A stretch of DNA of 64,000 bases from Apostichopus japonicus (lineage: Eukaryota > Echinodermata > Holothuroidea > Aspidochirotida > Stichopodidae). The notes under the pieces are model-generated. The model searched no databases. It was given only the letters and a program-made list of their open reading frames with translations, and was not told the DNA's origin. Made by a program: the position numbers and the translations under genes. The stretch covers positions 32,136,001 through 32,200,000 of the forward strand of contig NC_092580.1 of NCBI RefSeq assembly GCF_037975245.1, written 5' to 3'. Shown here piece after piece: positions 1 through 64,000 of the stretch (within the stretch, counting starts at the first letter, position 1; each line of letters opens with the position of its first letter).

Positions 1-343
1 TAAGTCCATGCAAGTTCAAAGCAAATGTGTGAACAAATGGCACAGTTTTGAGCAAAATTAGGACGCCAAGAGTTAAAAGTCACCGAGGTGATGACATCTG
101 CAACTCCATGGATTGCTTGCTTGTTCATTTCGAGCTCACACACAACACTTTGTTTGATATTATGGAGTTTTCAGATGTATGTATTTTAGATCCTCCTGCA
201 AGCAGGAACTTGCAAAGAAGCCTCATTTGCTTATCAATGCCACAAGCTGAACAAAGTCAGTCTCTTAGATTCATATTTAACGTCCATGATTATGAATTGT
301 CAATTGTCAACAACTCTGTAACTGGACGACATACATTAATCTT

Positions 344-409
344 GCAGTGACTCGAACCGGGGACCTTATGATTGGAAGGCACCAGCGTTAACCACTGAGC
401 TAACACTCC
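344..409 (-). repeat. tRNA-derived SINE head (in intron or 5' flank)
   Basis: Read on the minus strand, the segment starts GGAGTGTTAGCTCAGTGG and ends near GGTTCGAGTCACTGCA, giving a good RNA polymerase III A box (TTAGCTCAGTGG) and B box (GGTTCGAGTC) at tRNA-like spacing. The anticodon arm is imperfect: the short CCTT/AAGG stem leaves an eight-base loop. This points to a tRNA-derived retroposon head, not a working tRNA. The tail would run toward lower coordinates but I could not define its end. Confidence 0.6.
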
Positions 410-586
410 TTGACTTTCCAGATGTTGTCAAACTTGTCAGATTTTTTTGTGGCAGCGACTTTGATTTCCACTCTTTACATTTGAAATGTTGTGAGCTTGT
501 TTGCTTTCATTTAGATCATGAAGCTCTTTTAAATATGTGTGTAATTGTATCGATACAATCTTGTGTTTTGTTTTTTTCCCATGAAG

Positions 587-709
587 AAAATCCTTGCCAC
601 AGGAGACCCTGTGGAGATGTGGCAGACGGTATCTGTGTTCCAAATCTTTCCAAGTACGAATGCGAATGTAACGAGGCATCCATCTTTAACGGAGAAACCT
701 GCAGAAGAG
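587..709 (+). CDS. Exon: EGF-like module
   Basis: After an acceptor ending ATGAAG at 586, the exon encodes about 41 residues with six cysteines in EGF spacing (NPC, RPC, GIC, YEC, EC, ETC) and ends in CAGAAGAG before GTGACC. It begins and ends in phase 1, as animal EGF exons commonly do. The N-terminal ENPC and internal GIC-V-N pattern resemble ordinary EGF modules; the calcium-binding consensus is incomplete. Confidence 0.8.
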
Positions 710-25000: not shown

Positions 25001-27967
25001 ATAACATGCTCCCCACCCCATCCCACCCACCCACCCACCCACCCACCGGTTATTACCTAGAAAGTCAGTCAGCTCTGTGATTCCTTGCCATACAATGTGC
25101 TCAAGATTCAAAATAACTAACTGACTAATGTAGAGCAAGTGAGTTTAATTTGACTAAGAATTAAGTGAGAACCAGAAAAGATTTCTGGCAATCCCTTGTG
25201 GTTTTAACCATGTCATTCACATCATCAGGATTTTACAATACAGAAGTTTAAACCAAAATGTTTCAATATCCAGAAAAAACAGTCTTCCTATGTGAAATAT
25301 AGGCACATTTTACCAATTTTGAGCTAGCTTTTTCCCATTTAATAACTATTGAGAGTTACATGACATTGTTTTATACACTGTGAAATCCTTTGAAAAAAAT
25401 GACTAATTTTTTTCACCATTTGAGATAACCTTTTGACCCCTTGAGTCACTTTGTGCTCATTTGAAATAACCTGTTGACCCTTGAAGCTCACAGAGTAAAA
25501 ACTGAGCCCTACATGCAAGTTTAAAGCAAGAGTATGAACTCTGAAGCAGATTTCCTTACCTGGATGCCAGGTATGTTTGCTGAAGACCTATTAGAGCCCC
25601 TTCACAGAACTAAACTGAACTGAATTTGACCAAACTATGTTCACCAAATGAAATTCATAGCATTGAAGAATTCACAGATTAATTGTATCTTTAATTTTGG
25701 AGTGATTATGTTTAAAAAGATATCACACTTTGATACCTGTTGACCTCCATCATCCCCAGTCCCCTCCATAACCCCAGTCTCATCCATCATCCCCAGTCCC
25801 CTCCATCATCTAGAGTCCCCTCCATCATCCCCAGTCCCCTCCATCATCCCAGTCCACTCCATCATCCCCAGTCCCCTCCATCATCCTCAGTCCCCTCCAT
25901 CATCCCGTCCCCTCCATCATCCCCAGTCCCCTCCATCATCCCCAGTCCCCTCCATTATCCCCAGTCCCTTCCATCATCCCAACTCCCCTCCATCATTCCC
26001 AGTCCCCTCCATCATCCCCAGTCCCCTCCATCATCCCAGGTCCCCTCCATCATCCCCAGTCCACTCCATCATCCCCAGTCCCCTCCATCTTCCCCAGTCC
26101 CCTCCATCATCCCCAGTCCACTCCAACTTCCCCAGTCCCCTCCATCATCCCCAGTCCCCTCCATCATCCCCAGTCCACTCCATCATCCCCAGTCCCCTCC
26201 ATCATCCCCAGTCCCCTCCATCATCCCCAGTCCACTCCATCTTCCCCAGTCCCCTCCATCATCCCCAGTCCCCTCCATCTTCCCCAGTCCCCTCCATCTT
26301 CCCCAGTCTCTTCCATCATCCCCAGTCCCCTCCATCATCCCCAGTCCCCTCCATCATCACCAGTCCCCTCCATCATCCCCAGTCCCCTCCATCATCCCCA
26401 GTCCCCTCCATCATTCCCAGTCTTCTCCATCATCCCCAGTCCCCTCCATCATCCCCAGTCCCCTCCATCATCCCCAGTCCCCTCCATCATCCCCAGTCCC
26501 CTCCATCATTCCCAGTCTTCTCCATCATCCCCAGTCCCCTCCATCATCCCCAGTCCCCTCCATCATCCCCAGTCCACTCCATCTTCCCCAGTCCCCTCCA
26601 TCATCCCCAGTCCCCTCCATCATCCCCAGTCCCCTCCATCATCCCAGGTCCCCTCCATCATCCCCAGTCCCCTCCATCATCCCAGGTCCCCTCCATCATC
26701 CCCGGTCCCCTCCATCTTCCCCAGTCCCCTCCATCATCCCCAGTCCACTCCATCTTCCCCAGTCCCCTCCATCATCCCCAGTCCCCTCCATCATCCCCAG
26801 TCCCCTCCATCATCCCAGGTCCCCTCCATCATCCCCAGTCCCCTCCATCATCCCCAGTCCCCTCCATCATCCCCAGTCCACTCCATCTTTCCCAGTCCCC
26901 TCCATCATCCCCAGTCCCCTCCATCTTCCCCAGTCCCCTCCATCTTCCCCAGTCCCCTCCATCTTCCTCCATCTTCCCCAGTCTCTTCCATCATCCCCAC
27001 TCCCCTCCATAATCCCCAGTCCCCTCCATCATCACCAGTCCCCTCCATCATCCCCAGTCCCCTCCATCATCCCCAGTCCCCTCCATCATTCCCAGTCTTC
27101 TCCATCATCCCCAGTCCCTCCATCATGCCAGGTCCCCTCCATCATCCCCAGTCCCCTCCATCATCCCCAGTCCCCTCCATCTTCCCCAGTCCCCTCCATC
27201 TTCCCCAGTCCCCTCCATCATCCCCAGTCCACTCCATCTTCCCCAGTCCCCTCCATCATCCCCAGTCCACTCCATCTTCCCCAGTCCCCTCCATCATCCC
27301 CAGTCCCCTCCATCATCCCCAGTCCCCTCCATCATCCCCAGTCCCCTCCATCATCCCCAGGCCCCTCCATCATCTCCAGTCCCCTTCATCATCCCCAGTC
27401 CACTCTATCTTCCCCAGTCCCCTCCATCATCCCCAGTCCCCTCCATCTTTCCCCAGTCCCCTCCATCATCCCCAGTCCCTTCCATCATCCCCACTCCCCT
27501 CCATCATTCCCAGTCCCCTCCATCATCCCCAGTCCCCTCCATCATCCCAGGTCCCCTCCATCATCCCCAGTCCACTCCATCATCCCCAGTCCCTTCCGTC
27601 ATCCCCACTCCCCTCCATCATTCCCAGTCCCCTCCATCATCCCAGTCCCATAAATCCCCATCATCCCATGGTGGGCCATTTGGGACTGTAAACCGTGTGG
27701 CCTTGATGACAGTACATTCAAAGGTATCACAAAAAAAAAACCGATACTGTAGATGATCTTATCCAGAGAACAGACATGTTATTTACCTGTGCATAAGATG
27801 GTGGCCAAGACTGATGAAGCCAATGCGCTAATTAGTATGGATGAAGATGGGAATTCTTTGTCCCACTGGATGTAAAACACCCCCATGGAGGATCCCAATC
27901 CATGGGTCAAGCCCTGGAGAACGAAGGCACATGCAACAGTGATCCAACCTTTCTTGTTCTTCAGCAT
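21630..27967 (-). CDS. SLC16 (monocarboxylate transporter-like) major facilitator, complete four-exon gene
   Basis: Exons 27967-27787, 24839-24696, 23968-22712 and 22000-21630 join in frame, all junctions in phase 1, to give 650 residues. SLC16 carriers are 12-helix MFS proteins, mostly plasma-membrane carriers of lactate, other acids, thyroid hormone or aromatic compounds. Visible: TM1 with SSMGVFY (about residues 7-32), the TM2-3 exon with APISGAISRKAGIR, the family motif SAYGWRGA between TM4/5, a hydrophilic central loop of about 160 residues, TM7-11, and TM12 in the last exon. In TM8 the sequence is NLVSRCTYG where MCT1 has its paired Asp and Arg: the Arg is kept, the Asp is Asn, and the TM1 lysine of MCT1 is absent. 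A classical proton-lactate carrier is therefore less likely than an orphan SLC16. The substrate cannot be read from sequence. The C-terminus ends in a GADGH repeat. Confidence 0.87.
21672..21830. repeat. 15-bp coding minisatellite (GADGH pentads)
   Basis: On plus the unit is CATCAGCACCATGTC, repeated with substitutions (CCC, ACC, CTC) at the variable third triplet. Because 15 is a multiple of three, copy-number change adds or removes whole pentads in the transporter tail without frameshift. Confidence 0.85.
22063..22672. repeat. Intronic 27/33-bp minisatellite in SLC16 intron 3
   Basis: Units GTACAAGAAATAAAGCATTC + ACTACAC (27 bp) recur about 15-20 times; the first few copies carry six extra bases (GTACAAGTACAAG) making 33 bp. 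Both lengths are multiples of three, so the minus strand has a long false ORF of about 198 codons with a nine-residue period (VVNAIFLVR). It lies between the exon 3 donor (22711) and exon 4 acceptor (22001), so it is intronic. Confidence 0.88.
22712..23968 (-). CDS. SLC16 exon 3: TM4-TM11 and central loop
   Basis: This 1,257-bp exon is entered after TTTTCCACACAG at GFGSSIVYMSSV and left at GCTG|GTAGGT. It holds TM4-6 (with YGWRGA), a polar loop rich in Gly, Glu and Asp (about residues 186-345) with a KKCKCG cluster, then TM7-11 (from NIRLLWTNAPFATFLVSFG to NLISATCAG). Open sequence upstream to 24167 is intron and includes a His-coding GAT/GAC microsatellite. The central loop lacks recognisable motifs and is where SLC16 proteins usually diverge. 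Confidence 0.87.
24042..24106. repeat. GAT/GAC microsatellite in SLC16 intron 2
   Basis: About 65 bp of GATGATGAC-type trinucleotides ending in GGTGGTGGTGGTGG. On minus it reads as poly-His in an open frame continuous with SLC16 exon 3, but the CACACAG acceptor at 23969-23971 places it in the intron. Confidence 0.85.
24696..24839 (-). CDS. SLC16 exon 2: TM2-TM3
   Basis: This 144-bp exon is phase 1-1, entered after TTCGTTACAG and left at ATCG|GTAAG. It encodes APISGAISRKAGIRLSMALG and YRASLLFLTVTAMIG, covering TM2, the short basic loop and TM3. Exactly 48 codons fall between the borders, and joining preserves family alignment to the flanking exons. Upstream in-frame sequence to 24945 is intron. 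Confidence 0.85.
25742..27656. repeat. 19-bp C-rich minisatellite, ~1.9 kb, about 100 copies, in SLC16 intron 1
   Basis: The unit CCCCAGTCCCCTCCATCAT repeats with few variants (CCATCTT, CCAGGT, AGTCCACT, AGTCTTCT). Because 19 is not a multiple of three, one 57-bp turn gives the 19-residue period SIIPSPLHHPQSPPSSPVP. No stop arises in the main plus frames, which creates false ORFs of 637 and 188 codons. The lack of any non-repeat protein, the strand opposite to the host gene and the intronic position argue against coding. Confidence 0.92.
27787..27967 (-). CDS. SLC16 exon 1: start and TM1
   Basis: ATG at 27967-27965 begins MLKNKKGWITVACAFVLQGL; the exon ends ACA-G before GTAAAT. The KKGWITVACAF stretch corresponds to the DGGWGWVV start of family members, and MGVFYIQW to their GVF motif. 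It was chosen as the start because it gives the normal short N-terminus and no in-frame upstream Met precedes TM1. CTGTGAAC at 28013-28020 reads as an acceptor (GTTCACAG) on minus, so part of the 5' UTR may lie in an earlier exon. Confidence 0.83.
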
Positions 27968-37576: not shown

Positions 37577-38065
37577 CTATGTACAAGCTTTGGCTCTAGC
37601 TATGAAGTGCTGTCTCTTATGATAATGACGGAGCGCACTAGTTTTCAACTGGAATCGCCCGAAGATGCGGCGTCTGTAATCCGAGGAACCAACGAACTTC
37701 TCTGCTAACTCCTCAGGCTTCAACTGGGCTAGACGTTCGCGGAGAATATAGCACACCATCACGTGATTCAGCCTCTGTTGAGTCATGGTGCTCCGTAGCC
37801 ATGTCTTCAAACGCCTCAAAGCACTAAAAGATCTCTCGGCTTCCGTCGAACTGGCGGAGGAGACGAGGAGCAACCACAAGAGAGCTTCGACTTCTCCAAA
37901 CATAGCCCGTATCGCTGGATTCATCAACTTGAATATTTGTCTATACCCTTCAACCGACAACAACTGGAACTGGCCTCGAAAGAAAGGCAGACTAAGCTTA
38001 AGATTGTCGGAGAGCTCAGGGTACCAACTCACGAGATCTGGGTGGAATTCTCCATTCAGCAACAT
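37577..38065 (-). pseudogene. hAT transposase, C-terminal dimerisation part only
   Basis: The 162-codon frame contains SSASSTEAERSFSALRRLKT, then WLRSTMTQQRLNHVM, the signature of the hAT C-terminal dimerisation region in TTF/ZMYM-type hAT transposases, and ends with a basic tail (RRRIFGRFQ). The N-terminal BED/TTF zinc finger and RNase-H-like catalytic acidic residues are missing: only about 170 bp lies between the frame and the right terminal repeat. It cannot be an active enzyme. Exaptation is possible but nothing supports it. Confidence 0.85.
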
Positions 38066-38489
38066 TGAGTGATATTCGATGATATGAATCCTTAGATGTG
38101 TAAGTCCTAACCAAATAGAGACACGACATTACTCTTTTTCCAAATTTGTGGGGGGTGGGGGGACATTTGCTATTGTTTCCCCCACCCATCGAAATGTGGG
38201 GGGACGTGTCCCCCCGTCCCCCCTGGATTGACGCCCATGGGTCGGGGGTACTCGCTCAGAAATTGTTAAAATTTAACACCTTTAGATGCGATATACTGGT
38301 ACCTGACACCCAACAATAGTGCACAAATGCCCCCTCTGCCCACCCCAGCCCCGCTACTGCACATAACTGCAACAACTATTTGCATATTGCCAGTAAGCAA
38401 ATGTTTAACCCCCGAACGTGAGGGTGGGGGCTCCCCCCAGATCTCGACGAAGTAGGTTGTCTCCCCTGCTCCCCCCCCCCCCGGTTCCT

Positions 38490-41146: not shown

Positions 41147-41931
41147 GCTATATAAGAGAGGTGACAGTGCAAAATGGCCACAAAAAACTGGAAAAATGGA
41201 CTTGCTTAGAACTTTCTATACGGTGATGGATAGGAAACTTTGCCACAGGCCTAGGTTACGTGGGACCACTTCTTTCAAAATTAGTTCAACAATGCATCAG
41301 GGGTGTATACAAACATTATTTCTACGATTTTGAGACAATAAACAAATTATTATGTGTGTGCGAGACCGGGCAGCTTTTTTTTTTTTGACCGACAGCCGCT
41401 GTCGGGCAAGTAAGCCGAGTTTCAAAAAGCAAACCAACAACCCTAATAAAAATTAAACAGTCGGAAATGGGCATTTCTGTATACTTTGCTTTTCTCTAAG
41501 TTTTCGCTGTTTCTCATTTGTGTTTATTCAAATGACTTGATGATAAAACGCGAGCGACGTCGCTGTGAGTCCGGACTCGACGTGCACAAACAAATCTATT
41601 GAGCTCAATGTAACCGCTATTCCGCAATGGTCGAACAAGCGAAGACCGACTATCACAAATCCCAATTTCAGGACTGTGATCAGAAGCAGTTATTCCGGCA
41701 GGTCGACAGGTTATACTCATTGGGTTCAGACAAAGTTCTTACATCCCATGAAGATACAGAGAAGCTAGCAAATGACTTCGCATATTTTTTCGTGGACAAA
41801 ATTCGAAAGGTTGGAGATAAGTTGGACAACATCACCCTGCAACCGCCTGTGTTTCCTGGAAGGCTTCATCAAAACAAATCGCTGGCAGCCTTCAGTGAAT
41901 TTCGCAAAGTATCAGTCGACGCCGTCCGTCG

Positions 41932-42072
<141 letters not shown>

Positions 42073-42215
42073 GTCCCTTCGATTCAATTCCTACGTCGCT
42101 TCTCAAAGAGTGTCTTCCTGGGTTAATACATCCCATCACCTAAATTGTCAACCGTTCACTCAGGTCTGGCGTTTTCTCGGAATCGTATACCAATAATTAT
42201 AGACCCATTTCCAAC

Positions 42216-43535
42216 TTGAAATTCGTTTCCAAGGTTGTTCAGAGGGCAGCCTTAGCTCAGCTGCAGGATCATATGTTGGTGAACAATCTCTATGGGAGCA
42301 AACAATCCGCGTACCGAAAAAACTTCAGCACTGAAACCGCGCTCGTCCGTGTTCAGAACGATATCTTAAGGGCTGTTGATCAGCATTCCGATGTAATCCT
42401 CGTTCTCCTTGACCTTTCGGCCGCCTTCGACACCGTCGACCACCATACTCTACTCGATCGGTTGAAGGATCGCTACGGACTACGTGCCGACGCTCTGTCG
42501 TGGTGTGAAAGTTATCTCTGCGGTCGTTGGCAAATGGTTGCTATTGGTAACAGTGTATCAGATACATATCTCATGGATTGTTCTGTGTCCCAAGGTTCCG
42601 TTGCAGGACCTTTCATGTTCACTGTCTATGTATCACCACTCGAGGATCTGATAGAGGCTCGCGGCGTTCAGACAATGATGTATGCAGAAGATACCCAACT
42701 GTACCTTGTGCTTAATCCTGCTGAGGCTCGAGAGGATCAACTTCAGTGACTTGAAGTCTGTATTCGCAGCGTGAAAGCGTGGACCACTGCCAACAAGTTA
42801 ATGCTGAACGACACCAAGACGGAGGTTCTTCACTTTTCCTCGCGTTTTATAAAGAATCCGTCTCCTATCTCCGCTATTCAAGTTGGTGACACGGAAGTTG
42901 GTGTTGCTCCCGAAGCACGGAATCTCGGCGCGTTGATAGACCGACACATGTCGCTAATTCAATCGCATGTGAACAAATTGTGTCGCTCTGCAAGTCTTGG
43001 GATATCAAAGATTGGTCGTATAAGGAAATATATAGATCGGCCGACTGCTGAACGACTTGTACACGTCTTCGTAACATCTCATCTCGATGCCAATAACAGT
43101 CTTCTCTATGGCCTACCAAATTCTGCCATTGCCAAGCTACAACGTGTGCAGAATGGTGCCGCTCGAGTTGTCCTGGGTGTAAGTGGTAGGGATGTTCACC
43201 TAAATGCCTTGCGCAAGAACGAGCTCCATTGGCTTCCAGTGAAAGACCGCATTGTGTATAAAATTCTATTGCTTACTTACAAGTCACTCAACGGTCTTTC
43301 TCCTGCTTACATCAGAAATCTTCTCGCTGCTTACACCCCGGGACGCTCGCTCCGTTCAGCATTGCAGGCACTCCTCGTGGTCCCGAAAACCGTCTCAACC
43401 AAGAACTACGGAGATCGCGCTTTCTCGGTCGCTGCACCGAAGCTTTAGAACGACCTACCACACGACGTAAAGACTGCCAAATCTCTCGCCATATTTAAGG
43501 CAATTTTAAAAACACATCTTTTTAGTTTCTCAACG
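42216..43535 (+). pseudogene. LINE reverse transcriptase (ORF2) remnant
   Basis: In one frame: KFVSKVVQRAALAQLQDHML, VLLDLSAAFDTVDHHTLLDR (RT motif with the first catalytic Asp), SVSQGSVAGPFMFTVYVSPL (QGS block), MYAEDTQLYL where active enzymes have (Y/F)ADD, then LGALIDRHMS, LHWLPVKDRIVYKILLLTYK and the C-terminal NDLPHDVKTAKSLAIFKAI. Two in-frame stops occur: TGA at 42747-42749 and TAG at 43446-43448, where related proteins have Trp before NDLP. The Asp-to-Glu change in the catalytic motif and the stops show it is dead, although most of the frame is still open. Confidence 0.9.
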
Positions 43536-45384: not shown

Positions 45385-47103
45385 GTGGTCATCATTCATG
45401 GTGGAGACCATTCAGACCAATGATATATTTTTCGCACATGTAATTTTTTTTCGACACCCAAAATCCCAATGGGAGGGCGACTGGGGGGCGACAAGCTTTC
45501 ATGGGGGCTGTCGCCCCCCCCACGCCCCGTGGCTACGCCACTGCATACCATATACGAAATCTGCATCACTCCGTCTTCTTCCACCGTGTAAAGGTGTTAC
45601 ATCCACGAGATGACATTAAGTCACCACGCATGCGTCTAGCTGAGGTCACCCAATGCCTACTATGAGTGACAATGGTTCTTAGCAGGGTCATTGTCGTTCA
45701 CGCACTGCAATATATGCGCGTACTATACTGATTGATATAAACACAATCAACTGATTCCTGCTGTAATTGTAATGTAAGCCTAAGTCTGTTTTGTTGCTGT
45801 GCATGGACTGCTGCTTTGGTTTTAATTTATGGCACTGGTACGTATGTGGAAAATAACAAACACTTAGACACATTTGGAGAAAAAAAAACTTTATTCCATT
45901 TGTTTTAAGTGTGGAACCATCTACCAATGATAATGTGAGGCCATCCGAGAAGACCATATATATTATCATATCATAATTTTTATTAAAACTTGACAAACTT
46001 ATCTGAGTTTGGGTTATCCAACTGGATTATATTCACAATGCCGTAATTCTGTGAGACCTTGATAGCATCCGAGTGATCAAGCAAGGCTTATCAACTGAAA
46101 CCCGAATTGAGCGACCCGCTTTTCATTGCGTGCGAAAATGTTCACTTAGTCACAAGTCACATTAAGTCACAAAGAAGTAGGCTATATGTCATTTAATGCA
46201 ACTGAGAACCGTTGTCACTTTAAATACGCGGGTGACAGTTTGTGACACCTTTAACTGTCAGAATATAGGCTACAGGTCAGTACGTCCTACCATATGTAAG
46301 ATAAGTACTTGCAAAACTATGAAGATAAAAATATATATAACCAGGCAACTATATTCAGTGCACGGCATCGCCCTACTTTCATAGTAATGTTGTTAGTACG
46401 GATATGCGATAACTTGGCAATGTTTGTTACGAGATCAAAAGTGAACTGCACACTTCATGAAGGTTTGCATGCATGCTTCATTAACTTGAAACTGCTATTA
46501 AGGGTGTATGGTTTTCTATCAATAACGCTGTATTTGTACCTTAATATAGGATATTTCTCTTTTCAGGAAATTAACCACAAATAGAGCCTAGATATCAGGA
46601 GCTTAAAGGTAATTCACCAAGATAATATATCAGCTCTTAGCCCCACTCCAGTCACATCGAAACTATCAGTTATAATTGCCACATTTGTCAATGAAAAGGA
46701 CCATTTCCTCTATTTTTGTGATTTAGGGCTTCTTTTGGAAGTAAGCAAAATACCCAGAGACTGGATATTGTCCTATTGAACACACAGAGGAATACCTTTA
46801 TCAGCCCGTTTTCTTGGGAACGTCGTGGGTCCCCCCCTCCTCCTCCCCGCCACTCAAACCAACTTGTTCACCGTATATACCACTGTCCCTCTATTATTTG
46901 TCCCCGAGTCTCCGTCCCCAAGATTCAATTCTCTGAGTCGCTCCTGTGCAAGGAGAAGAAACATGATCGTATAAACACACTGTTCAGAGAGATTCGAATG
47001 GTGTTTAGACTAATGGTTTAAACATTGTGGCAGTCTAAGTTTCCTTAAAGCGTGGAGCAAGCTATTTAATCTTTGGCACGTCGTGAACCAGTATCTTTAC
47101 ACA
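45385..47103. repeat. Segmental duplication copy A (1.7 kb)
   Basis: Similar to 57362-59050 in the same orientation over about 1.7 kb, with substitutions and small indels, including about 23 bp (TCGCCCTACTTTCATAGTAA and following bases near 46368) absent from copy B. It includes a G/C-rich block ending GTGGCTACGCCACTG, the right end of a hAT-like element. The 62-119-codon ORFs within it change differently between copies (frameshifts), so they are not under protein constraint. Similarity stops exactly at TTTACACA (47103), where copy B carries the transposon insertion. Confidence 0.88.
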
Positions 47104-48815: not shown

Positions 48816-49952
48816 TCATTGCTCGGAAATTGTTAACTGGCGCCTCGTCAACGAACCTTGATGGTTGCTACTGCCAAATATCTGCCAACGGCTAGGACAC
48901 TTGAGCATCTTTTTGATCTCTTCTCTGATAGTTTTATTTCCGAATCCATATATGTAAGGACAAAAAAACCCAGTACTGTGCGCGAATAAGTGAAGCAACA
49001 CATACGCTTTCGGTGAAACATTCTCTGGAGTTATTACTCCGGTGAGTAAGAAGAGAGTAAATGGTACCCAATTGATTACATATATCGTCAATACGATGAA
49101 GAGGCGCAGCGCCGATTTGGCTTCTCTCATCATACGACCATAGGAGTGGTTTCTAACACTGGCGTTTCGAGCCGGTGTACGCCGAGTCCTTTCCCGAGCT
49201 GGCTGGCCGCTGTTCGATTCAGTCTGGGGAGTAGATTTAATCGATGCGGACACTCCAGTAGTTGGTCTAGTATCAAAGGCTGACGTGGCGGCTATCTCCC
49301 GAATATGTCGTCTAACCGTCCAGAAAATGTGGGCATGAATGAATGTCATAATAGGGATAGGTAGCATCCAATGGGCAACAAGAATCATCCCGTAGATCTT
49401 AGATGGCACCATAAAACTCAAATTGCATCTTCTTGTAAGTCGCCAGATGTGGCCCTTACCAATCCACAGAAGCCCCGATACTACAATGCCATACGTATAG
49501 CCATATATTGCAATGGATGCCAATGCAATTATGGATCTCCTCGGTGTGAGTATTGTGTTGGCCGTGAGAGGCCGACAGATTGTAATGTAACGCTCCACGG
49601 TGGTAGCTAAGAGACAAAATGTGATTTGTATTGATAGAGCTAAGTTCGGGGATCCTCCCAAGTAGCAAGATGGCTGGGTGGTGAAGAAGAAAAGGTCGAA
49701 GAGTGACTGCATCGGATAAGCTGAAATGTCGTTGATCAAGCAAAAAAACATCAATACAACTGTGAAATTGTTCGAGACCGTACGGATGTGTCTCTTCTTG
49801 ATAAAGACTAGAATAACGCAGATATTGCCAAAAGAACCAAATAAGGCGACGGGAACCGTTGTCAGAACGGTAAACCTAACAAGATCAGGAGTTACTTCTC
49901 CAATATTACTAGATGAAGCTTCAGATGATATATTCATGACTTTCATCGACAT
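48816..49952 (-). CDS. Orphan class A (rhodopsin-like) GPCR 1, intronless
   Basis: A single 378-residue frame has seven hydrophobic helices and class A marks: GN in TM1 (GSFGNICVILVF), Asp75 at the conserved TM2 site (LINDISAYP), Cys96 before TM3, ERY at 120-122 (VERYITICRPL), a partner Cys in the second outer loop (RRCNLSF), Pro in TM5 (HWMLPIPIM), NWVPF in TM6 and CPYIY in TM7 where most receptors have NPxxY. The third inner loop is long and basic; the N-terminus has an NIS glycosylation site. It signals presumably through G proteins at the plasma membrane; the ligand is unknown. It resembles lineage-expanded orphan receptors of marine deuterostomes. Its closest relative here is the plus-strand gene at 53021. 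Start: first Met of MSMKVMN; the later Met6 is also possible. Confidence 0.9.
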   Translation of the reverse strand: MSMKVMNISSEASSSNIGEVTPDLVRFTVLTTVPVALFGSFGNICVILVFIKKRHIRTVSNNFTVVLMFFCLINDISAYPMQSLFDLFFFTTQPSCYLGGSPNLALSIQITFCLLATTVERYITICRPLTANTILTPRRSIIALASIAIYGYTYGIVVSGLLWIGKGHIWRLTRRCNLSFMVPSKIYGMILVAHWMLPIPIMTFIHAHIFWTVRRHIREIAATSAFDTRPTTGVSASIKSTPQTESNSGQPARERTRRTPARNASVRNHSYGRMMREAKSALRLFIVLTIYVINWVPFTLFLLTGVITPENVSPKAYVLLHLFAHSTGFFCPYIYGFGNKTIREEIKKMLKCPSRWQIFGSSNHQGSLTRRQLTISEQ

Positions 49953-51701
49953 CTTGATTGCAGATAAGAAATAATGCGTTCGAGAAACAATAGGTGTGAC
50001 TGTGACGAAAATTAGAAGCGCGCCCGGTCAATAAGCCTGTGTTTTATGAATGTACATTAATACCTGAAATACAGAGTTTTTATTTGCAAACTTCAATACA
50101 ATTTTCCAACGTGTATACGGTGCCCAATCACACTTGTGCTAAACATTAAAAAAATGAAGTCCGTTTGCGGAAAAAGGAAAACATGTAATATGTATAAATA
50201 TAATATTCCCTGTTAATAAGTGCGACGATCGTCCAATCATTAATATATCTGTTTGCTTTTACAATCTATAGGAGATTTCGGTAATGCGTGGCCATTGGTC
50301 GACGTTCTATCAGCATAATATTAATAAAACCTGAGCTTTCATCAAGGCAAATCAAAGGAGTTCAAATATAGGTCACTAATATTTACCAATAGATCTTCAA
50401 TTATAAATACTGTACGTGATTATTTGACATCATCTTGCTTTGCATATATAGCAAGTCATTTATAATGGATGCTGGACATTGGCGATTCATAAAACTTACT
50501 TGTTTTACAACACCAAATAAACAAAAAGTAGGCATTTCATGGATATGCAGATCTGACCTGAACTTTGGCCGCTGACGCATATGTGACACCATCACTCAAT
50601 AGCCCATGTCATAACGGAATACAAACTTGAAGTGTATATGAGCCTTAGAATTTAGAAGAACTTTCTACACACTTTTTTTAGTCTTTAAAGTCCAGTGACC
50701 TCAATATATATTTTAACATTTTACCCTGGTTTATACGTTACATGCAAACAACATATAAAAACACATTCATATTCCAACATGGGTATGACAATCTCTCGGC
50801 ATTTTGGCATGCACCAAAAATATCATCTTTATTTCTGCCCTTTGAAGATTAAAACTATGGCCCTATATAATAATATGTCACAGAGGCATAACGATGGACA
50901 TATTGGAGTGTGGAGGGGATTATGTTTTTGTTAAATCGATTTTCAACACAGAAACACATATCTGACAGGAATTCAACTTCAGCGGAAAATAATACAAAAC
51001 TTTTTTCTTCCTATTTGTTTTATTACTCTTACGTTAATGGATGAAAGACCACGATAAATTCGACTCCAAAGTTTGAGACCGACTTGGAATCGATTTGACC
51101 CCGACTATTGAAGATGTACTGCATGTGAACGTGTAACAACCCCACCCCCGTTTTTACATCCCTGGTTGCACCAATGATATTTCATGTAGTTCAGGCATTG
51201 TGCATTAATTCCTCTCATCATCCAGTATTAAAGCATGGCATTCCTGCGGAGAGCTATCGAAAAAGCCATCATCAACAATGCCAAAATATTTGTCTCAGCA
51301 TATCTGTAGCTGAAATTCCCATTAATGGTAATATCAAAACCTCGTTTAGCTTATATGGACAAAATGAGACCTAATGTAACACAAACGGACTACCTAGTCT
51401 ATAAAAGACGCAGATATATCAACAATGATGCAGAACTCGGTCGGGCTTTGCATTGTTTTCTACACATGAGAACTAAAAGAGGTAAAAGACACCTTTGGGA
51501 AACAAAATTTACATCAATATCTCTCCAAGCAGAAAATACTCAACTAGCTGGATGCTGGGCACGTGGGACAGCCACGACGCCTCTCCGGAGACTCTGTCTG
51601 TTAGCCCAACATCAACCCTGTCAACCAATGAACTACTGGAACCACACGACATACTTTCCAAGATAGCCCGTGAATTGGAATGGCAATTATCTATATACAC
51701 C
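49953..51701. other. Between the divergent receptors: no gene seen
   Basis: Promoter-side DNA of GPCR 1 followed by AT-rich sequence and the second copy of duplication block 2 (50967-51265). The plus ORFs at 51325-51746 have no recognisable domain. No core promoter could be assigned. Confidence 0.4.
50967..51265. repeat. Local duplication block 2, second copy
   Basis: Matches 48066-48340: AACTTCAGCGGAAAATAATA, CGACTCCAAAGTTTGAGACC and CCTGCGGAGAGCTATCGAAA. An 11-bp insertion (TTGTTTTATTA region) separates the copies near 51018. Confidence 0.82.
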
Positions 51702-52063: not shown

Positions 52064-53020
52064 TATACACCTCTATAGTTACACAACGTTGCGCAGATTA
52101 GAAACCCTCTGGGACCACCAAAATAAATCATCGCACAAAATGGGCAACAATTCCATGTTCAACCATATCGAACAAATTGAAAGAATGAATTACAAACTTT
52201 TAGCCCTTACTATAATCTGATAGTAACCGAAAATTGGGCATGTTGCGGTTTATAAAGGTGTATTCGCATACCCTTCCTGAACGGAAGGGCTCGTGTAGGC
52301 CGATACTGTAGACTTTGAAGGTGGGTGGTGTTATGCTTCCGGAGTTTTGACATAACAGGGGTGACCTTACAACCATATTTATTTCATCTGCAACTCTATG
52401 GATTCTCTTGTTATGATTTCTTAGTTATAATAGCATAAAAGCCGTTGCCGTAGATTTTCACGCAAAAACCTCCTGTTACCAAAAACTATCTATATATGAT
52501 ACGTGATCACTTAATGTTCTTTAAGACAAATCTAAACTGTTGATAACAGGAAAGCCGTTCCCGTGGATTTTCATGCAAATGCGTCATATTTACCAAATAC
52601 CGATGATACATGCGCACATTAAACGAAGATTTCCAATCAATTTGTTTGTTGAAGTGCAATATATATGTAAGGCAAATGTAACCCTATTGATTATTCGTTA
52701 TCAGATGCTCTGGAACCGTTTACTAAATATTGTCTGGAAAGATTTCTGAATGTTGCCCTGTGCCGAGAATACACGTTTATACGACCACTGGAAATATTTT
52801 TTCCAGCAGTCACATAGTTATTTTAAGTTTAGTTATTATAATTAGTCATAATAATAGCATCGTTGAAACGCACTGTTCGCGGCCACAACATAGAACTGGC
52901 AGGAATTACAGTACTGTGAAAACATTCAATCAGCTGATAAGTTTGGTGAAATTTCACTGAATCTGTCAGTATAAGTAACCTGATTATAAAAAAAGAAAAG
53001 AAAAAAATCATCTCATCGCC

Positions 53021-54109
53021 ATGGCGGGAAGGAACAACCAATCTTTCAACAATAATATTGAAGATCTCACCTCTGATATTCTTATCTTTAGCATATTCAC
53101 ATGTGGCCCAGTGATCCTGGTTGGAACATTTGGCAATCTTTCCGTTGTAGTAGTGTTCTTCAGGAAGAGGCACATCAGGACCACGTCCAACTATTTCATG
53201 GTTGCATTGATGTTTTCTGTCGCATGGGTCAATATGGTTGCCTATCCCTTGCAAGCAATGTGCGATGTGTTTTTGATCGTTACTCAGCCTATGTGCTACT
53301 TGGCCGGTGCGTCTGGTATTATGTCGTCCTTGTTCATGACTTTGTTTTTGCTGGCAACGACGGTCGAAAGATACATTACCATTTGTCAACCCTTAACAGC
53401 ACACACGATAATAACTCCAAGAAGAGCTGTTACCATCATATCATTTCTCGCATTCTATGGGGTTCTCCTTGGAAGTGGTTTCTTTGGTACCGTCTGGATC
53501 GGAAAGGGAGAACTATGGCGCCAAACTCGGCGTTGTAACTTCAATTTTATGATGCCATCGACAATCATGGTGCAGTTCATTATAGGTCATTGGATGGTTC
53601 CTTTACCGGTTATGATCTTTATTCACCTTCACATATTTCTTACCGTTAGGAGACATATTCGCGCAATTGCAGCAGTACAATGTGGAACAATCGTCCGACC
53701 TCCTGTAGGGGAAGACCCTGTCGGTCTTCAACGCGGCGGCCAGGGAAACATCCTTGCACAAGACGGACAAAGATCTGCCCACAGTCGTCTAATGAAGGAG
53801 GCTCGATCTGCCATGCGCTTAGCTCTCGTTATTGCAGTTCACATATTTAACTGGGTTCCTTTCACCGTCTTTTTGTTGACAGGTGTGCTCAGATCAGAGA
53901 ACATTTCCCCTAAGCAGTATATCCTTCTTCATTCGTTTGTATACAGCACTGGATTAGTCTGTCCTTATATTTACGGATTTGGGAACAAATCAATACGCAC
54001 TGAAATTCAAGCAATGTTGTGTGGAAAATGTACCACTTCAACCAGGGATCCTCGAGCTCATAGGATTGCAGCGATTACTACTGGCCTTCCTCGACAATTT
54101 ACCATGTAA
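53021..54109 (+). CDS. Orphan class A (rhodopsin-like) GPCR 2, intronless
   Basis: 362 residues, paralogous to GPCR 1 throughout (shared RKRHIRT, TTVERYITICQPLTA, WIGKGELWR-TRRCNF, HWMVPLPVM, FNWVPFTVFLLTGVL, CPYIYGFGNKSIR). It is a plasma-membrane receptor with N-terminal NQS glycosylation, ERY at 117-119, Cys92 and a loop-2 Cys. The conserved TM2 acidic site is Asn71 here (AWVNMVAYP), unlike Asp75 in GPCR 1; this residue normally coordinates sodium and shapes activation. Asn also replaces the usual Cys in the TM6 CWxP motif, and CPYIY replaces NPxxY. The C-terminal tail after GFGNK is unrelated to that of GPCR 1. Start: ATG in ATCGCCATGGCG, a good initiation context. The 3' end is partly duplicated just downstream. 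Confidence 0.9.
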   Translation: MAGRNNQSFNNNIEDLTSDILIFSIFTCGPVILVGTFGNLSVVVVFFRKRHIRTTSNYFMVALMFSVAWVNMVAYPLQAMCDVFLIVTQPMCYLAGASGIMSSLFMTLFLLATTVERYITICQPLTAHTIITPRRAVTIISFLAFYGVLLGSGFFGTVWIGKGELWRQTRRCNFNFMMPSTIMVQFIIGHWMVPLPVMIFIHLHIFLTVRRHIRAIAAVQCGTIVRPPVGEDPVGLQRGGQGNILAQDGQRSAHSRLMKEARSAMRLALVIAVHIFNWVPFTVFLLTGVLRSENISPKQYILLHSFVYSTGLVCPYIYGFGNKSIRTEIQAMLCGKCTTSTRDPRAHRIAAITTGLPRQFTM

Positions 54110-57361: not shown

Positions 57362-59050
57362 GTGGTCATCATTGAAATTCCAGACCATTCAGACCAATTA
57401 TATATTTTTCGCACATGTAATTTTTTTCGACACCCAAAATCCCAGTGGGAGGGCGACTGGGGGCGACAAGCTTTCATGGTGGGCTGTCGCCCCCACGCCC
57501 CCGTGGCTACGCCACTGCATACCATATACGAAATCTGCATCACTCCGTCTTCCTCCTTCGTGTAAAGGTGGTACATCCACGAGAGGACATTAACTCACCA
57601 CGCATGCGTTGAGCTGAGGTCACCCAATGCCTTATATGAGTGACAATGGTTCTTTGCATGGTCACGTGCGTTGACGAACTGCCATATATGCGCGTACTAC
57701 TGATTGTTATAAACACAATCAACTGATTCCTGCTGTATTTGCAATGTAAGCCTAAGTCTGTTTTCTTGCTATGCATGGACTGCTGCAGCTTATCGCTTTG
57801 GTTTTAATTTATGGCACCGGTACGTATGTGGAAAATAAAGAGCACATAGACACACTTGGAAAAAACTTTGTTCCATTGTTTTAAGTATGGAACCATCTAC
57901 CAATGATAACGTGAGGCCATCCGAGAAGAGTATGTATAATATCATATCATATTTTTTATTAAAACTTGACAAACTTATCTGAGTTTGGGTTATCCAAATG
58001 GATTATACTCACAATTACGTAATTCCGTGAGACCTTGATAGCATCCGAGTGATCAAGCAAGGCCTATCAACTGAAACCCGAGCGACCCGCTTTTCATTGC
58101 GTGCGAAAATGTTCACTTAGTCACAAGTCACATTAAGTCACAAAGAACTAGCTATATGTCATTTTATGCAACTTAGAACCGTTGTCACTTTAAATACGCG
58201 GGTGACAGTTTGTGACACCTTTAACTGTCAGAATATAGGCTACAGGTCAGTACGTCCTACCATATGTAAGATACTTAGTACTTGCAAAACTATGAAGAAA
58301 AAAATATATATAACCAGGCAACTATATTCAGTGCACGGCATGTTAGTACGGATATGCAATAACTTGGCAATGTTTGTTACGAGATCAAAAGTGAACTGCA
58401 CACTTAATGAAGGTTTGAAAACATGTTTCATTAACTTGAAACTGCTATCAAGGGTGTACGGTTTTCCATCAATAACGCTATATTTGTACCTTAATATAGG
58501 CCATTTCTCTTTTCAGGAAAATTAACCACAAATATAGCCTAGACATCAGAAGCTTAAAGTTAATTCACCAAGAAAATATACCAGCTCTTAGCCCCACTCC
58601 AGTCACATCGAAACTATCAGTTATAATTGCCACATTTGTCAATGAAAAGTACCATTTCCCCTATTTTGGGGATTTAGGGCTTCTTTTGGAAGTAAGCAAA
58701 ATATGCAGAGACTGGATTTTGTCCTATTGAATACACAGAGGAATACCTTTATCAGCCCGTTTTCTTGGGAACGTCGTGGGTCCCCCTCCTCCTCCCGCCC
58801 CTCAAACCACTTGTTCACCGTATATACCACTGTCCCTCTATTATTTGTCCCCGAGTCTCCGTCCCCAAGATTCATTTCTCTTAGTCGCTCCTGTGCAAGG
58901 AGAAGAAACATGAACGTATAAACACACTGTTCAGAGAGATTCGAATGGTGTTTAGACATGTGGTTTACACATTGTGGCAGTCTAAGTTTCCTTAAAGCGT
59001 GGAGCAAGCAATTTAATCTTTGGCACGTCGTGAACCAGTATCTTTACACA
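57362..59050. repeat. Segmental duplication copy B (1.7 kb)
   Basis: Counterpart of 45385-47103 in the same orientation. It ends at TTTACACA (59050), immediately before the 3.7-kb element. The differences from copy A are scattered substitutions and small indels, so it is clearly older than the near-identical elements that follow it. Confidence 0.88.
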
Positions 59051-59383
59051 TAGTTAGGCAGATATCAGCAAAATTATGAAACAATATGGCATTTTTTCAT
59101 ACAAGCATGAGTTTTGGCACACAGGTAGAGGACACCCTAAGTAACATTTTCAGAAGTGGAGCCATCGCGAAAAAATCCCACGTCAGCCGTGGCGACCATT
59201 TTACAAAATGGCCGCCAAAATCTCTGTTTGCTACTATAATTTGCCCTTTAAAATCTAATCTAGAGATAATTGGATTTGAATTTTCATCAGTGAATGCACT
59301 CAATTACATGTACTAGGTACATAGATGGCTAGAGATCATGAATCAGACTAATTTAGAAGACATCAACAAGGATAGCAATATGC

Positions 59384-61709
59384 TTGGCAGCATATCATGC
59401 CAGTCAGCAACCAGTACGAGATCGTACACCTGCTATTACAGCACTGTTACCACTGTTTCCTGAAGACTCAAAGTCTGCTGCCATGATAAAGCACTCCACG
59501 GACCTGATAAAGCGAGCAGTAGAAAAACTCAACCCTGGCCGAATACCAGTGATCACCTTGGATCAGCCCCTCTACACAATCGCCAAACAGATACATTGGC
59601 AATGGCCTGCAGACTACAGGGAAGATGTTTTTGTCATAGTGCTTGGAGTGTTTCACATTGAGATGACTGGATTCAAAATGATCGGTGATTGGCTGGAAGA
59701 TTCAGGCTGGGTAGAGGCACTTTTTCAGTCTGGAGTCACATCAATAGGAACTGCAGATTCATTTTTGAGGGCCTCCCATGTTACTAAAACTAGACAAGCA
59801 CATCAGGTTACGGCTAGTTGTTTGTACATACTACTCAGGAAATCATACGACAACTACAAGGGGACACTAGATCCAGAGGTACATCCAGAAAGATTTGACG
59901 ACTGGTGAGTTCAAACAAACAAGAGATACCACAATTAACGTTTGGTACACAGTGTTTCAGCTGGACCTTCTTGTCTTGACATGTGTGCGAGCACTGCGTG
60001 TGGGGGATTTCGCTCTGTATATTGATTCCTTAACAAAACTTGCACCACGGTTCTTCGGCTTGGATCACACTAACTATGCTAGATGGATGTCAGTGCATGT
60101 ACGGGACATGACCATTTAAGCAAAACACATCCTGACATTGCTGCAGAATTCAATAAAGGCAATTTCACAGTCCGTAAGTCAAGACGGCCATGTTCATCCA
60201 TAGCCCTTGATCAGGTGCATGAGCAGAACAATGCGATTGTAAAGAGCGATGGTGGAGCTATTGGTCTGACCCAAAACCCCTGATGCTTTCAGACGATGGA
60301 TGGTTGCCGGCCCTGAGGTAGTAAGGATGAACACAGAGTTCAAAGCCTCGATCGAGAGATATCTAAAGAATTCAAACCAAGAATCACACCATCACGAACA
60401 GACCAAAATTTCGCAAGTTACGTTTGCCAAGGAAGTCCAGAGTATGGTTCAAGTGATGCATGAAGAAATGGGCAATCCTTTTCTGGGGGAAACTAATGAC
60501 TTGCTCAAACTCGACAACAAGGATATTGTTGATCAAGCTGTGACGACCGCAGTATGCCAGACAAAAAAGATAGTTCAGCAACAATATGACGACTTTGTGA
60601 CAGAAAGACTACAAGACCAATCAACACATATTTCAAAACCAATTAGGAAAAACAGACTCTTATTACTTAGTCTTCCTCCTGTGAGAGTGAAATCCAGTTC
60701 AAAATTGAAAGTGTCGACATTGAAGAGCAAAGTGTCCTTATTTTCACGCCTCTACATTGCCTGCAAATCAAGAGATGATGACAAAGGTGACTATTTGAGA
60801 CATGAAAACAAGGCATGTCCCCCAGTATTATCCCAATTTAGAAACTTGAGACTAGGGAGCAAGTCGGATCTTCTTGTGTTCCTTGAAGCATTCTCAGAGT
60901 CTACAAGTGGCATACCAGCTATACTATTATTCTAGATGGAGCAGTAATTGTCAATATACTTTGACCCATAAATGTCAAGACGTTTGACGACTATGGACTG
61001 AAGGTGTTCTTGCCATTCATAAAACGGCAGTTGCAACATGCTAGTAGAGTGGATATAGTCTGGGATCAGTAAAGGGAACGCAGCTTGAAGACGCAGGCCA
61101 GGAACAAACGTTGCAGACTGCAGAGGTTTCCGAAGACGAGTTGAAGGCTCCAATAGTTTGCCAGGGAACTGGCAACAGTTTCTACGCCTCGACGAGAGCA
61201 AAACCGAGCTGTTCAATTTCTTGCCCAAGCATGTATCTAATATGCAATTGGAACACGGCAAGATAGTAATCACAACCAGCAGGCCAAAGGTGTTGTGCAT
61301 GCCTCCTCAGGACACATCAAATATATCACCCTGCGACCACGAAGAGGCAGACACTAGGATGATATTGCACCTTTCGCATGCATTCCATGAAGGGTTCCAG
61401 AATATCCTCCTACGCACAGCGGACACATATATAGTGGTTTTGACCATAGCTGCAGTATCTAAACTAGGCATCCAGGAGCCATGGGTGGCATTCGGAACTG
61501 GTAAAAGCTTTAGATATATTCCAGTACATGAAATTGCTGCATCACTTGGCCCAAACAAGTGCCAAGCTCTGCCAATGTTCCATGCTTACACCGGGTGCGA
61601 CACTGTTTCAGCATTTTACAGCAAATGGAAGAAATCTGCTTGGGAAACGTGGAATGTATATGAAGCTTTTACCATAGCATCCATGACCATGCCAAATTCT
61701 GGACAATGA
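59384..61709 (+). pseudogene. Broken HEEADTR-family gene carried by the element
   Basis: Fragments in order: 59384-59908 (VLGVFHIEMTGFKMIGDWLE, GTADSFLRASHVTKTRQAHQ), 59895-60119 (FQLDLLVLTCVRALR, LDHTNYARWMSVHVRDM), 60083-60283 (HPDIAAEFNKGNF, ALDQVHEQNNAIVKSDGGAI), 60300-60935 (RRWMVAGPEVVRMN), and 61158-61709 (HEEADTRMILHLS, DTYIVVLTIA, WVAFGTGKSFRYIPVHEIAA, FHAYTGCDTVSAFYSKWKK). Together they follow the order of a large uncharacterised protein family that is multi-copy in many invertebrates and some fish. At least four frame breaks separate them. The conserved acidic residues (EEADTR, a DTDxVVL-type strand, GCDTVS) suggest a PIN/FEN-like nuclease fold, which is inference; here DTD has become DTY. 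The translation ends at 61709 well before typical length. Confidence 0.75.
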
Positions 61710-61743
61710 ATTGGCAGTACTGGAACGCTTTACGATTTTGTTA

Positions 61744-62082
61744 TGAACCAGTGCTATGGCCGAGTGGGAACCGGTGCTATGGCCGAGTGGATAAAGGCGG
61801 TGGCATTTGAAGCAATGAGGCTTAGCAATCGGGAGGTTCTGGGTTCGATTCCCGGCCGGGTCATAGTAAGGTGGGTTTTTCATCCAAGAGCAATCTATGG
61901 TTTTCCCATCTGAAATGACTTTCTAAATTGAAAAGATTCCAAATTTGAGTTATAATGTTGAATTGGAAGCCACCCGACGTGTAAGTTGTAATCCATAAGC
62001 CCTTGCGGGTTTCTCCCACATTTGTGGTCGCTTAAGCGTCGTAAAAATAACTGCTGATTATTATTATTATTATTATTGTTAT
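61744..62082 (+). repeat. tRNA-derived SINE with ATT tail
   Basis: A box TGGCCGAGTGG (61780-61790) and B box GGTTCGATTCC (61842-61852) lie in a Leu/Ser-like class II tRNA arrangement with a long variable arm. The 5' part is doubled: GTGCTATGGCCGAGTGG occurs at 61751 and again at 61774. A body of about 200 bp (TAAGTTGTAATCCATAAGCC, TTAAGCGTCGTAAAAATAAC) ends in (ATT)n, the tail type of CR1/L2 LINEs that would mobilise it. It is nested in the 3.7-kb element. Confidence 0.82.
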
Positions 62083-62230
62083 ATGACAACAGCAGCACCA
62101 TGGTAGATATATGGTATATATATATATATATGACTTCGAGTTGGTTAGCATCATGAGCTAGTATTGTTTGATACAGGTGTCAACGCAAACCTTCCTTACC
62201 GGTTTCGAACCTCTGGACATACAATCAGCA

Positions 62231-62298
62231 TCAATAGCCTAGTTGTTACGGTGTCCGCGTACAAAGCGGGAGGCCTGGGTTCGAAACCCGGTGGAGGC
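62231..62298 (+). repeat. Second tRNA-like sequence in the element
   Basis: TAGCCTAGTTGTTACGG (A box), an anticodon-like arm CCGC-GTACAAA-GCGG with a seven-base loop, and CCTGGGTTCGAAACCCGG forming a perfect T arm with the B box GGTTCGAAACC. No matching acceptor stem was seen, so it is probably a SINE head, not a tRNA gene. The anticodon position reads ACA. Confidence 0.65.
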
Positions 62299-62582
62299 TG
62301 GAAGATTTTTCACTGTTCTTCATTTTCCTTCCCATTACGTTTTCAATATTTCCCAAGAGTAGTTTCCACACATTAAATTTTGACTGCAGTACACTTTACC
62401 GTTCCATTACTAAAATTTGGCGGCCATCTTTAAAAATGGCCGCCACATATCACATGTACCCATCTATTTCAAATCTTTTTATTCCATATACATAATTATT
62501 ACATATAAAGTGATTTTCAGGTATATCAATACCTCTAATTATCTATTAAATTCAGTGCAATCAATGATTTTGCACTAAAAAT

Positions 62583-62926
62583 GTGGATTTTGGCGGCCAT
62601 TTTCTAAAATGGCCGCCATTGCTAATGTAGGCTCTTTTGGCGATGGCTCCACTTCCAGAAATGCTCCTTAGTATGTCCTCTACATGTGTGCCAAAGCTCA
62701 TGCTTGTATGACAAAATGCCATATTTTCACTGGTATCTGCTTGACTAGTTAGGCAGATATCAGCAAAATTATGAAACAATATGGCATTTTTTCATACAAG
62801 CATGAGTTTTGGCACACAGGTAGAGGACACCCTAAGTAACATTTTCAGAAGTGGAGCCATCGCGAAAAAATCCCACGTCAGCCGTGGCGACCATTTTACA
62901 AAATGGCCGCCAAAATCTCTGTTTGC
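62583..62926. repeat. Head-to-head inverted repeat at the element junction
   Basis: The right terminal repeat of copy 1 (62583-62745) meets the left terminal repeat of copy 2 (62746-62926), creating an inverted repeat with arms of about 170 bp and roughly 80% identity, centred on CTAG (62745-62748). Such a structure can extrude as a cruciform. Confidence 0.85.
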
Positions 62927-64000
62927 TACTATAATTTGCCCTTTAAAATCTAATCTAGAGATAATTGGATTTGAATTTTCATCAGTGAATGCACTCAATT
63001 ACATGTACTAGGTACATAGATGGCTAGAGATCATGAATCAGACTAATTTAGAAGACATCAACAAGGATAGCAATATGCTTGGCAGCATATCATGCCAGTC
63101 AGCAACCAGTACGAGATCGTACACCTGCTATTACAGCACTGTTACCACTGTTTCCTGAAGACTCAAAGTCTGCTGCCATGATAAAGCACTCCACGGACCT
63201 GATAAAGCGAGCAGTAGAAAAACTCAACCCTGGCCGAATACCAGTGATCACCTTGGATCAGCCCCTCTACACAATCGCCAAACAGATACATTGGCAATGG
63301 CCTGCAGACTACAGGGAAGATGTTTTTGTCATAGTGCTTGGAGTGTTTCACATTGAGATGACTGGATTCAAAATGATCGGTGATTGGCTGGAAGATTCAG
63401 GCTGGGTAGAGGCACTTTTTCAGTCTGGAGTCACATCAATAGGAACTGCAGATTCATTTTTGAGGGCCTCCCATGTTACTAAAACTAGACAAGCACATCA
63501 GGTTACGGCTAGTTGTTTGTACATACTACTCAGGAAATCATACGACAACTACAAGGGGACACTAGATCCAGAGGTACATCCAGAAAGATTTGACGACTGG
63601 TGAGTTCAAACAAACAAGAGATACCACAATTAACGTTTGGTACACAGTGTTTCAGCTGGACCTTCTTGTCTTGACATGTGTGCGAGCACTGCGTGTGGGG
63701 GATTTCGCTCTGTATATTGATTCCTTAACAAAACTTGCACCACGGTTCTTCGGCTTGGATCACACTAACTATGCTAGATGGATGTCAGTGCATGTACGGG
63801 ACATGACCATTTAAGCAAAACACATCCTGACATTGCTGCAGAATTCAATAAAGGCAATTTCACAGTCCGTAAGTCAAGACGGCCATGTTCATCCATAGCC
63901 CTTGATCAGGTGCATGAGCAGAACAATGCGATTGTAAAGAGCGATGGTGGAGCTATTGGTCTGACCCAAAACCCCTGATGCTTTCAGACGATGGATGGTT
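62746..64000 (+). mobile_element. Same element, copy 2, cut by the window end
   Basis: From 62746 to 64000 the sequence repeats 59051-60305 with an offset of 3,695 and no difference that I found, including all frameshifts. Copy 2 starts at the last base of copy 1. Either the unit is tandemly amplified or the assembly repeated it. Confidence 0.9.
63079..64000 (+). pseudogene. Second copy of the HEEADTR-family pseudogene (partial)
   Basis: Identical to 59384-60305, with the same breaks after DDW (63603) and after RDMTI (63814). The window ends inside it. Shared lesions show the duplication came after the gene was already broken. Confidence 0.88.

Follow-up and report, generated by a model that had tools for sequence, protein, structure and literature searches.

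The question raised by this locus is what the HEEADTR protein family does. A remnant of one of its genes lies in a stretch of 64,000 nucleotides of the Apostichopus japonicus genome (C20:32136001-32200000, called the window here), and a first-pass annotation made from the letters alone had proposed that the family is the transposase, or a passenger, of a DNA transposon. We read the region as a DNA transposon copy, now dead and doubled in tandem, that encodes the HEEADTR protein, most likely as its transposase, and we put the probability of this reading at about 0.85.

The gene remnant lies wholly within a 3.7-kb unit with inverted ends (59051-62747). The long inverted ends that the annotation had placed around the gene are real: positions 59083-59222 pair with 62586-62725 over 140 bp at 86%, and when the pairing is extended to the tips (TAGTTAGGCAG at 59051 and TAGTCAAGCAG at 62747) the local score is 234, as compared with a maximum of 36 in 50 mononucleotide shuffles. 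The span that it gave, 59384..61709, covers the gene but misses the rest of the unit, and it was silent on the tandem, the 3-bp target duplication, and the empty-site paralog at 45385-47103. Near-identical tips begin other copies of the subfamily of the window element. The features of the unit and its surroundings are as follows:

57362-59050, forward strand: host flank with an element-free paralog at 45385-47103 (91% over 1735 bp), the match ending exactly at the element
59048-59050, no strand: target site duplication of 3 bp, ACA (left copy); its right counterpart lies after unit 2, beyond the window
59051-59222, forward strand: left terminal inverted repeat of unit 1, tip TAGTTAGGCAGATAT, with the 140-bp core 86% complementary to the right end
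59190-59217, no strand: palindrome TGGCGACCATTTTACAAAATGGCCGCCA within the left end, with more copies at 62418-62445, 62591-62618, and 62885-62912
62586-62747, reverse strand: right terminal inverted repeat of unit 1, tip (reverse complement) TAGTCAAGCAGATAC
62746-64000, forward strand: second unit, head-to-tail with unit 1, running about 2.4 kb past the window end

The palindrome count expected by chance has a mean of 0.00 (100 shuffles). Unit 1 has three copies of this 28-bp palindrome (TGGCGGCCATTTTNNAAAATGGCCGCCA in general form), which is a candidate binding site.

The outer flanks of the tandem read TTTACACA before unit 1 and ACAGCGCTG after unit 2. The empty site in the paralog is located at 47103/47104, from where the sequence continues as ACGCTGTTTTAGG without the element. 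Because the paralog runs on in this way, the pre-insertion site is TTTACACA-RCGCTG, of which ACA was duplicated. The two paralogous segments of 1.7 kb (45385-47103 and 57362-59050) are 12 kb apart, the second being the one that received the transposon, and two related receptor-like frames, recognized by eye, are found near them (48816-50027 and 52979-54109). Elsewhere in the window there are an array of about 101 tandem copies of a 19-bp unit (CCTCCATCATCCCCAGTCC, 25744-27649) that is open in several frames and, by eye, a reverse-strand frame resembling the C-terminus of a hAT transposase (37577-38128) and a forward-strand frame resembling a CR1/L2-like reverse transcriptase (41603-43448).

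The second unit shows 0 differences from the first over 3695 bp, with L013 used for the portion beyond the window. At the junction, GACTAGTT, the two tips are joined with one common TA, the last two bases of the right end of unit 1 being also the start of unit 2, and because this TA is single, both units occupy one target. The shared TA at the junction (62740-62752) together with the one target duplication suggests that the tandem arose through a circular or dimeric intermediate, or by a very recent duplication with its boundaries exactly on the tips. A nested self-insertion was rejected, as unit 2 would be expected to have its own 3-bp duplication at the tip of unit 1 and the right flank speaks against it. 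A TA target duplication, which the tandem junction had suggested, was dropped, since the outer flanks are ACA. The identity of the two units would also fit an assembly artefact at 62746 in place of a true tandem; however, the junction would hardly be creatable by an assembler from a single copy, and ACA is present in both outer flanks, and we consider such an artefact somewhat unlikely.

The gene remnant itself, which had been noticed at first pass, consists of five pieces in two alternating frames (59357-61709) that are collinear with the open 1466-aa protein of L002, a contig of a Planctomycetota assembly, with E values from 8e-22 to 8e-4. Because the five pieces align in order to this protein, and two acidic motifs are found in the stop-broken stretch, we take them to be one broken gene, composed as follows:

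59357-59905, forward strand: DUF6589-like half, piece 1, with ITLDQ at 59552-59566 and LGVFH at 59642-59656
59871-60116, forward strand: DUF6589-like half, piece 2, with LDHTNY at 60060-60077; Pfam DUF6589 match at E 0.0018, below cut-off
60083-60280, forward strand: DUF6589-like half, piece 3, with LDQVHEQ at 60206-60226
60270-60932, forward strand: linker region, E 8e-4 against the L002 protein and 81% identical to the C16 copy L031
60929-61069, forward strand: nuclease-like half, first two acidic motifs (ILDGA, VWDQ), broken by stops
61089-61709, forward strand: nuclease-like half, with HEEADTR at 61338-61358, ADTY at 61419-61430, and GCDTV at 61593-61607
61745-62075, forward strand: tRNA-derived short interspersed element, recognized by eye, inserted in the gene; the L031 alignment resumes at 62076
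62109-62347, forward strand: second insert, with a tRNA-like stretch at 62227-62300, replacing 523 bp of the C16 copy near the 3' end of the gene

The first 23 bp of the insert at 61745-62075 are doubled (61745-61790), and neither ARAGORN nor Rfam found a tRNA origin for it. Compared with the C16 element, the window unit is missing positions 277-4227 of that element, and the inserts replace part of the 3' end of the gene. With the C16 frame as reference, the dN/dS ratio of the window copy is 0.78; five other copies give 0.51-0.66.

Related elements were sought in the window's genome (671.6 Mb, 35 contigs) by their ends and by their protein. With 210 bp of the left end as the query, 16 matches were obtained, from which ten stretches, equal to nine elements, were taken; two of them, L037 and L038, agree in the 20 bp that flank them on the right and may represent a single insertion that was duplicated. 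In six of the nine, the stretch contains pieces of the gene. The C16 copy (L031) spans 7616 bp, its ends are 93% and 91% identical to those of the window element, and within these matching ends it has an uninterrupted 950-aa frame and, upstream, a 599-aa frame. The latter, which recurs in copy L039, shows homology to the N-terminal regions of three other family proteins, those of C8 group A (E 5e-12), C8 group B (3e-5), and L002 (3e-5).

The 950-aa protein as the query gave at least 75 matches in the genome (48 scored of 450 first-look candidates), so that the multi-copy character ascribed to the family at first pass is borne out for the window's own genome. Four loci were chosen among these matches for having near-identical sisters, a selection that favours recent movers. 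The group A pair, on C8 and C20, is 99.8% identical over 7.8 kb, with a frame of 1551 aa and the tip TAGTCAGTGGGCCGA at both ends; the group B pair, on C8 and C18, is 100% identical over 6.5 kb, with a frame of 1572 aa and the tips TAGACTATGGGGC/TAGACGGTGGGGC. The sister copies sit on different chromosomes, each with its own target duplication.

The relatives outside the window's genome are two contigs in bacterial assemblies, L002 and L003. L003, from an assembly of a Bathymodiolus symbiont, contains a gene remnant flanked by ends of its own, with the tips TAGTAGGGTGCCC, a TTA duplication, and an end-to-end inverted match with a score of 96 versus a maximum of 41 in 300 dinucleotide shuffles; in our reading this contig is derived from the mussel host. 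L002 (1-6512), probably a contig of foreign animal origin, contains an open gene of the family, the product of which is 81.9% identical to that of C8 group A; the frame continues past the contig edge, and the ends of this element are therefore outside the end counts. The queries used found no relatives in the collections of viruses, phages, and plasmids; L001 and L004-L009, from the viral collection, match the pattern by chance and were set aside.

Both ends could be read in eight elements, one of them from mussel, and seven with one end only (L030, L032, L033, L034, L037, L038, and L039) were excluded from the duplication count. For both sister pairs and L003 the boundary was placed at the TAG tip, which in the pairs is one base inside the BLAST boundary. 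All eight have inverted ends, and the flanks match over 3 bp in 8/8 and over 4 bp in 0/8, the duplications being ACA, CAC, CTA, ATG, TAG, GGA, ACA, and TTA. When flanks were paired across different elements as a control, 2/56 agreed. The right tip of the C3 element has decayed, with 8/15 tip bases matching. Inverted ends and the 3-bp duplication are present in each of the five elements with uninterrupted frames (950, 1551, 1551, 1572, and 1572 aa); intact genes lacking flanking inverted repeats, which would have spoken against the proposal made at first pass, were thus not seen among the five intact-frame elements of the sample. With inverted ends, a duplication of constant length, an empty site, and copies at multiple loci, the window element is a class II DNA transposon with terminal inverted repeats. 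Because the intact relatives and the copies found by protein lie inside ends with 3-bp duplications, the HEEADTR gene is the element's own and its product is probably the transposase, which supports the original suggestion of a transposon-borne family.

On the basis of sequence alignment, the N-terminal half of the HEEADTR protein is homologous to the Pfam domain DUF6589 (PF20231, unknown function). This domain is the top Pfam match, below cut-off, for 4/4 intact HEEADTR frames and 1/5 window pieces, with E values of 0.0018 for the window piece 59871-60116, 0.003 for L002, 0.0046 for C16, 0.0074 for C8 group A, and 0.049 for C8 group B; Pfam gives no match to it for the remaining four pieces of the window gene, the 599-aa frame, or the three pieces of L003. 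The HEEADTR sequences with a match score 12.8-17.5 bits, under the curated cut-off of 27, and differ in this from the domain as defined, although their N-terminal half aligns to it in a consistent register. Run against the window's genome, the DUF6589 model gave 9 matches, 8 of them above the cut-off, and none in 14 control genomes. Three of these loci (L048, L049, and L050) have frames of 1882, 1822, and 1601 aa (the last cut by the stretch); L048 and L050 score 54.1 and 49.2 bits, and L049 scores 25.2 as a protein and 29.5 in the genome search. The proteins found with the model are homologs of the HEEADTR proteins over both halves: all 12 pairings of the three with four HEEADTR proteins align, over 808-1405 columns, with E values from 2e-41 to 6e-13. 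Their later motifs read HEE[SG]DSR, SPD[TR]D, and SGCD[YF], and the three (1601-1882 aa) make up a second clade, marked by HEE[SG]DSR. In the first half, D604, H633, D799, D845, and E849 (L050 numbering) are, among others, invariant in 7/7 proteins, and D604, D799, D845, and E849 are candidate DDD/E residues, the AlphaFold model having a pLDDT of 41. In the literature collection searched, no paper names DUF6589 or HEEADTR, and one names AcademX.

In the second half, D1128, E1239, E1240, D1242, D1263, D1265, and D1336 are invariant in the same seven proteins and are followed by a tail with eight cysteines, likewise invariant, to which the Pfam CXC model TCR gives a weak match in some proteins (E 0.0033-1.1). 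By eye, the order of the acidic motifs (D, D, E-E-x-D, D-x-D, and G-C-D, then a G-x-G-K turn) is that of FEN1/XPG/EXO1, and the motif spacings are similar. The family differs from these nucleases in the spacing of motifs 2 and 3 (102 residues versus 72), in the first acidic residue, which is E in the DUF6589 clade, and in having no significant profile or fold match to them. Among the Pfam matches of the long frames scanned there is no XPG model up to E 10, and no helicase in the seven scanned. The AlphaFold models of the two halves of the L002 protein, from four-row alignments, have pLDDT values of 43 and 41, and Foldseek on the first (pLDDT 43) returned nothing under E 0.3.

The FEN profile comparisons used five archaeal FEN proteins. 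With shallow alignments, hhalign gave no match. In a profile Smith-Waterman comparison the I region had a z value of about 0 and the N region one of 2.2, in another register. With four divergent proteins, hhalign aligned the last two motifs in the expected register at E 0.054, which was equalled by 9/300 column shuffles and outscored by 2/13 windows across the same protein; with seven proteins it aligned the first two motifs in the expected register at E 0.15, equalled by 19/200 shuffles and outscored by 3/9 windows. A profile search of the PDB ranked EXO1 (E 2.3) and the Cys-rich domain of LIN54 (E 2.4) below a BAR domain (0.0025), a match taken as one of composition. The metal-dependent nuclease suggested at first pass thus remains a motif-level proposal, which neither the structure models nor the FEN profiles established. 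It is possible, and we propose it tentatively, that DUF6589 is the transposase core in both clades (HEEADTR and HEE[SG]DSR) and that one chain combines a DDD/E-type half with a flap-endonuclease-type half.

As for the placement of the element, the name AcademX stands for XPG, and an eight-cysteine motif marks Academ proteins. PMC10045372, which cites the AcademH paper, gives duplications of 3-4 bp for AcademX and 9-10 bp for AcademH, linked to nuclease versus helicase; in PMC9587614 Academ stands among the superfamilies with a DDD/E transposase, and PMC10294476 describes an amplification of Academ in bivalves, where the mean length of 100 curated consensuses is 5565 bp. The elements studied here share with AcademX, as PMC10045372 describes it, inverted ends, 3-bp duplications (3-4 reported), a half that is nuclease-like by motif, and presence in a bivalve, and AcademX is likely the best name for them, a placement made by published description. 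A superfamily other than Academ, or an unnamed one, would agree with the length of the three complete element intervals measured (7616, 8991, and 8391 bp), which exceeds the bivalve mean in PMC10294476, and the likeness to Academ is one of description; yet the 3-bp duplications and the nuclease-like half fit AcademX (PMC10045372), and a bivalve relative, L003, was found for a superfamily that PMC10294476 describes as amplified in bivalves, which makes such a placement unlikely.

A transposon moved by another enzyme, in which the family protein is just a passenger or an accessory, is very unlikely. The putative catalytic residues of the protein come from sequence comparison, its C-terminal half resembles repair nucleases and could be accessory, and the data would also fit an obligatory accessory protein that acts alongside a second enzyme. 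The family is, however, found inside four different end sequences, because of which we regard it as the core gene and not a chance passenger, and in the C16 element each of the five frames of at least 90 aa between the ends is one of the two parts of this protein, lies within one of them, or is antisense to one.

With the HEEADTR protein as the transposase, transposition may be envisaged as follows. The intact protein (frames of 1551-1572 aa) would consist of an N-terminal region, the DUF6589 half, the FEN/XPG-like half, and the eight-cysteine tail. It would bind the long inverted ends with their palindromes and cut at the TAG tips; the DUF6589 half probably makes DDD/E-type cuts and is the likelier strand-transfer domain. 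The element would then be joined to a target cut with a 3-bp stagger, and gap repair would yield the 3-bp duplication. The window copy has lost about 4 kb upstream, where the N-terminal region is encoded, and inserts have cost it part of the 3' end; it would have been movable only with help and is now decayed.

These results point to a likely job for an unnamed animal protein family and for a Pfam domain of unknown function. They explain the copy number of the family in the window's genome, where near-identical copies with uninterrupted frames sit at different loci, and gene counts or claims of an expanded gene family that include HEEADTR proteins would need masking. One protein with two nuclease activities for transposition becomes testable; if the two-nuclease reading is true, trimming or cutting of the non-transferred strand would fall to the second half, and many proteins now labeled uncharacterised or DUF6589 would be transposases or their domesticated offspring.
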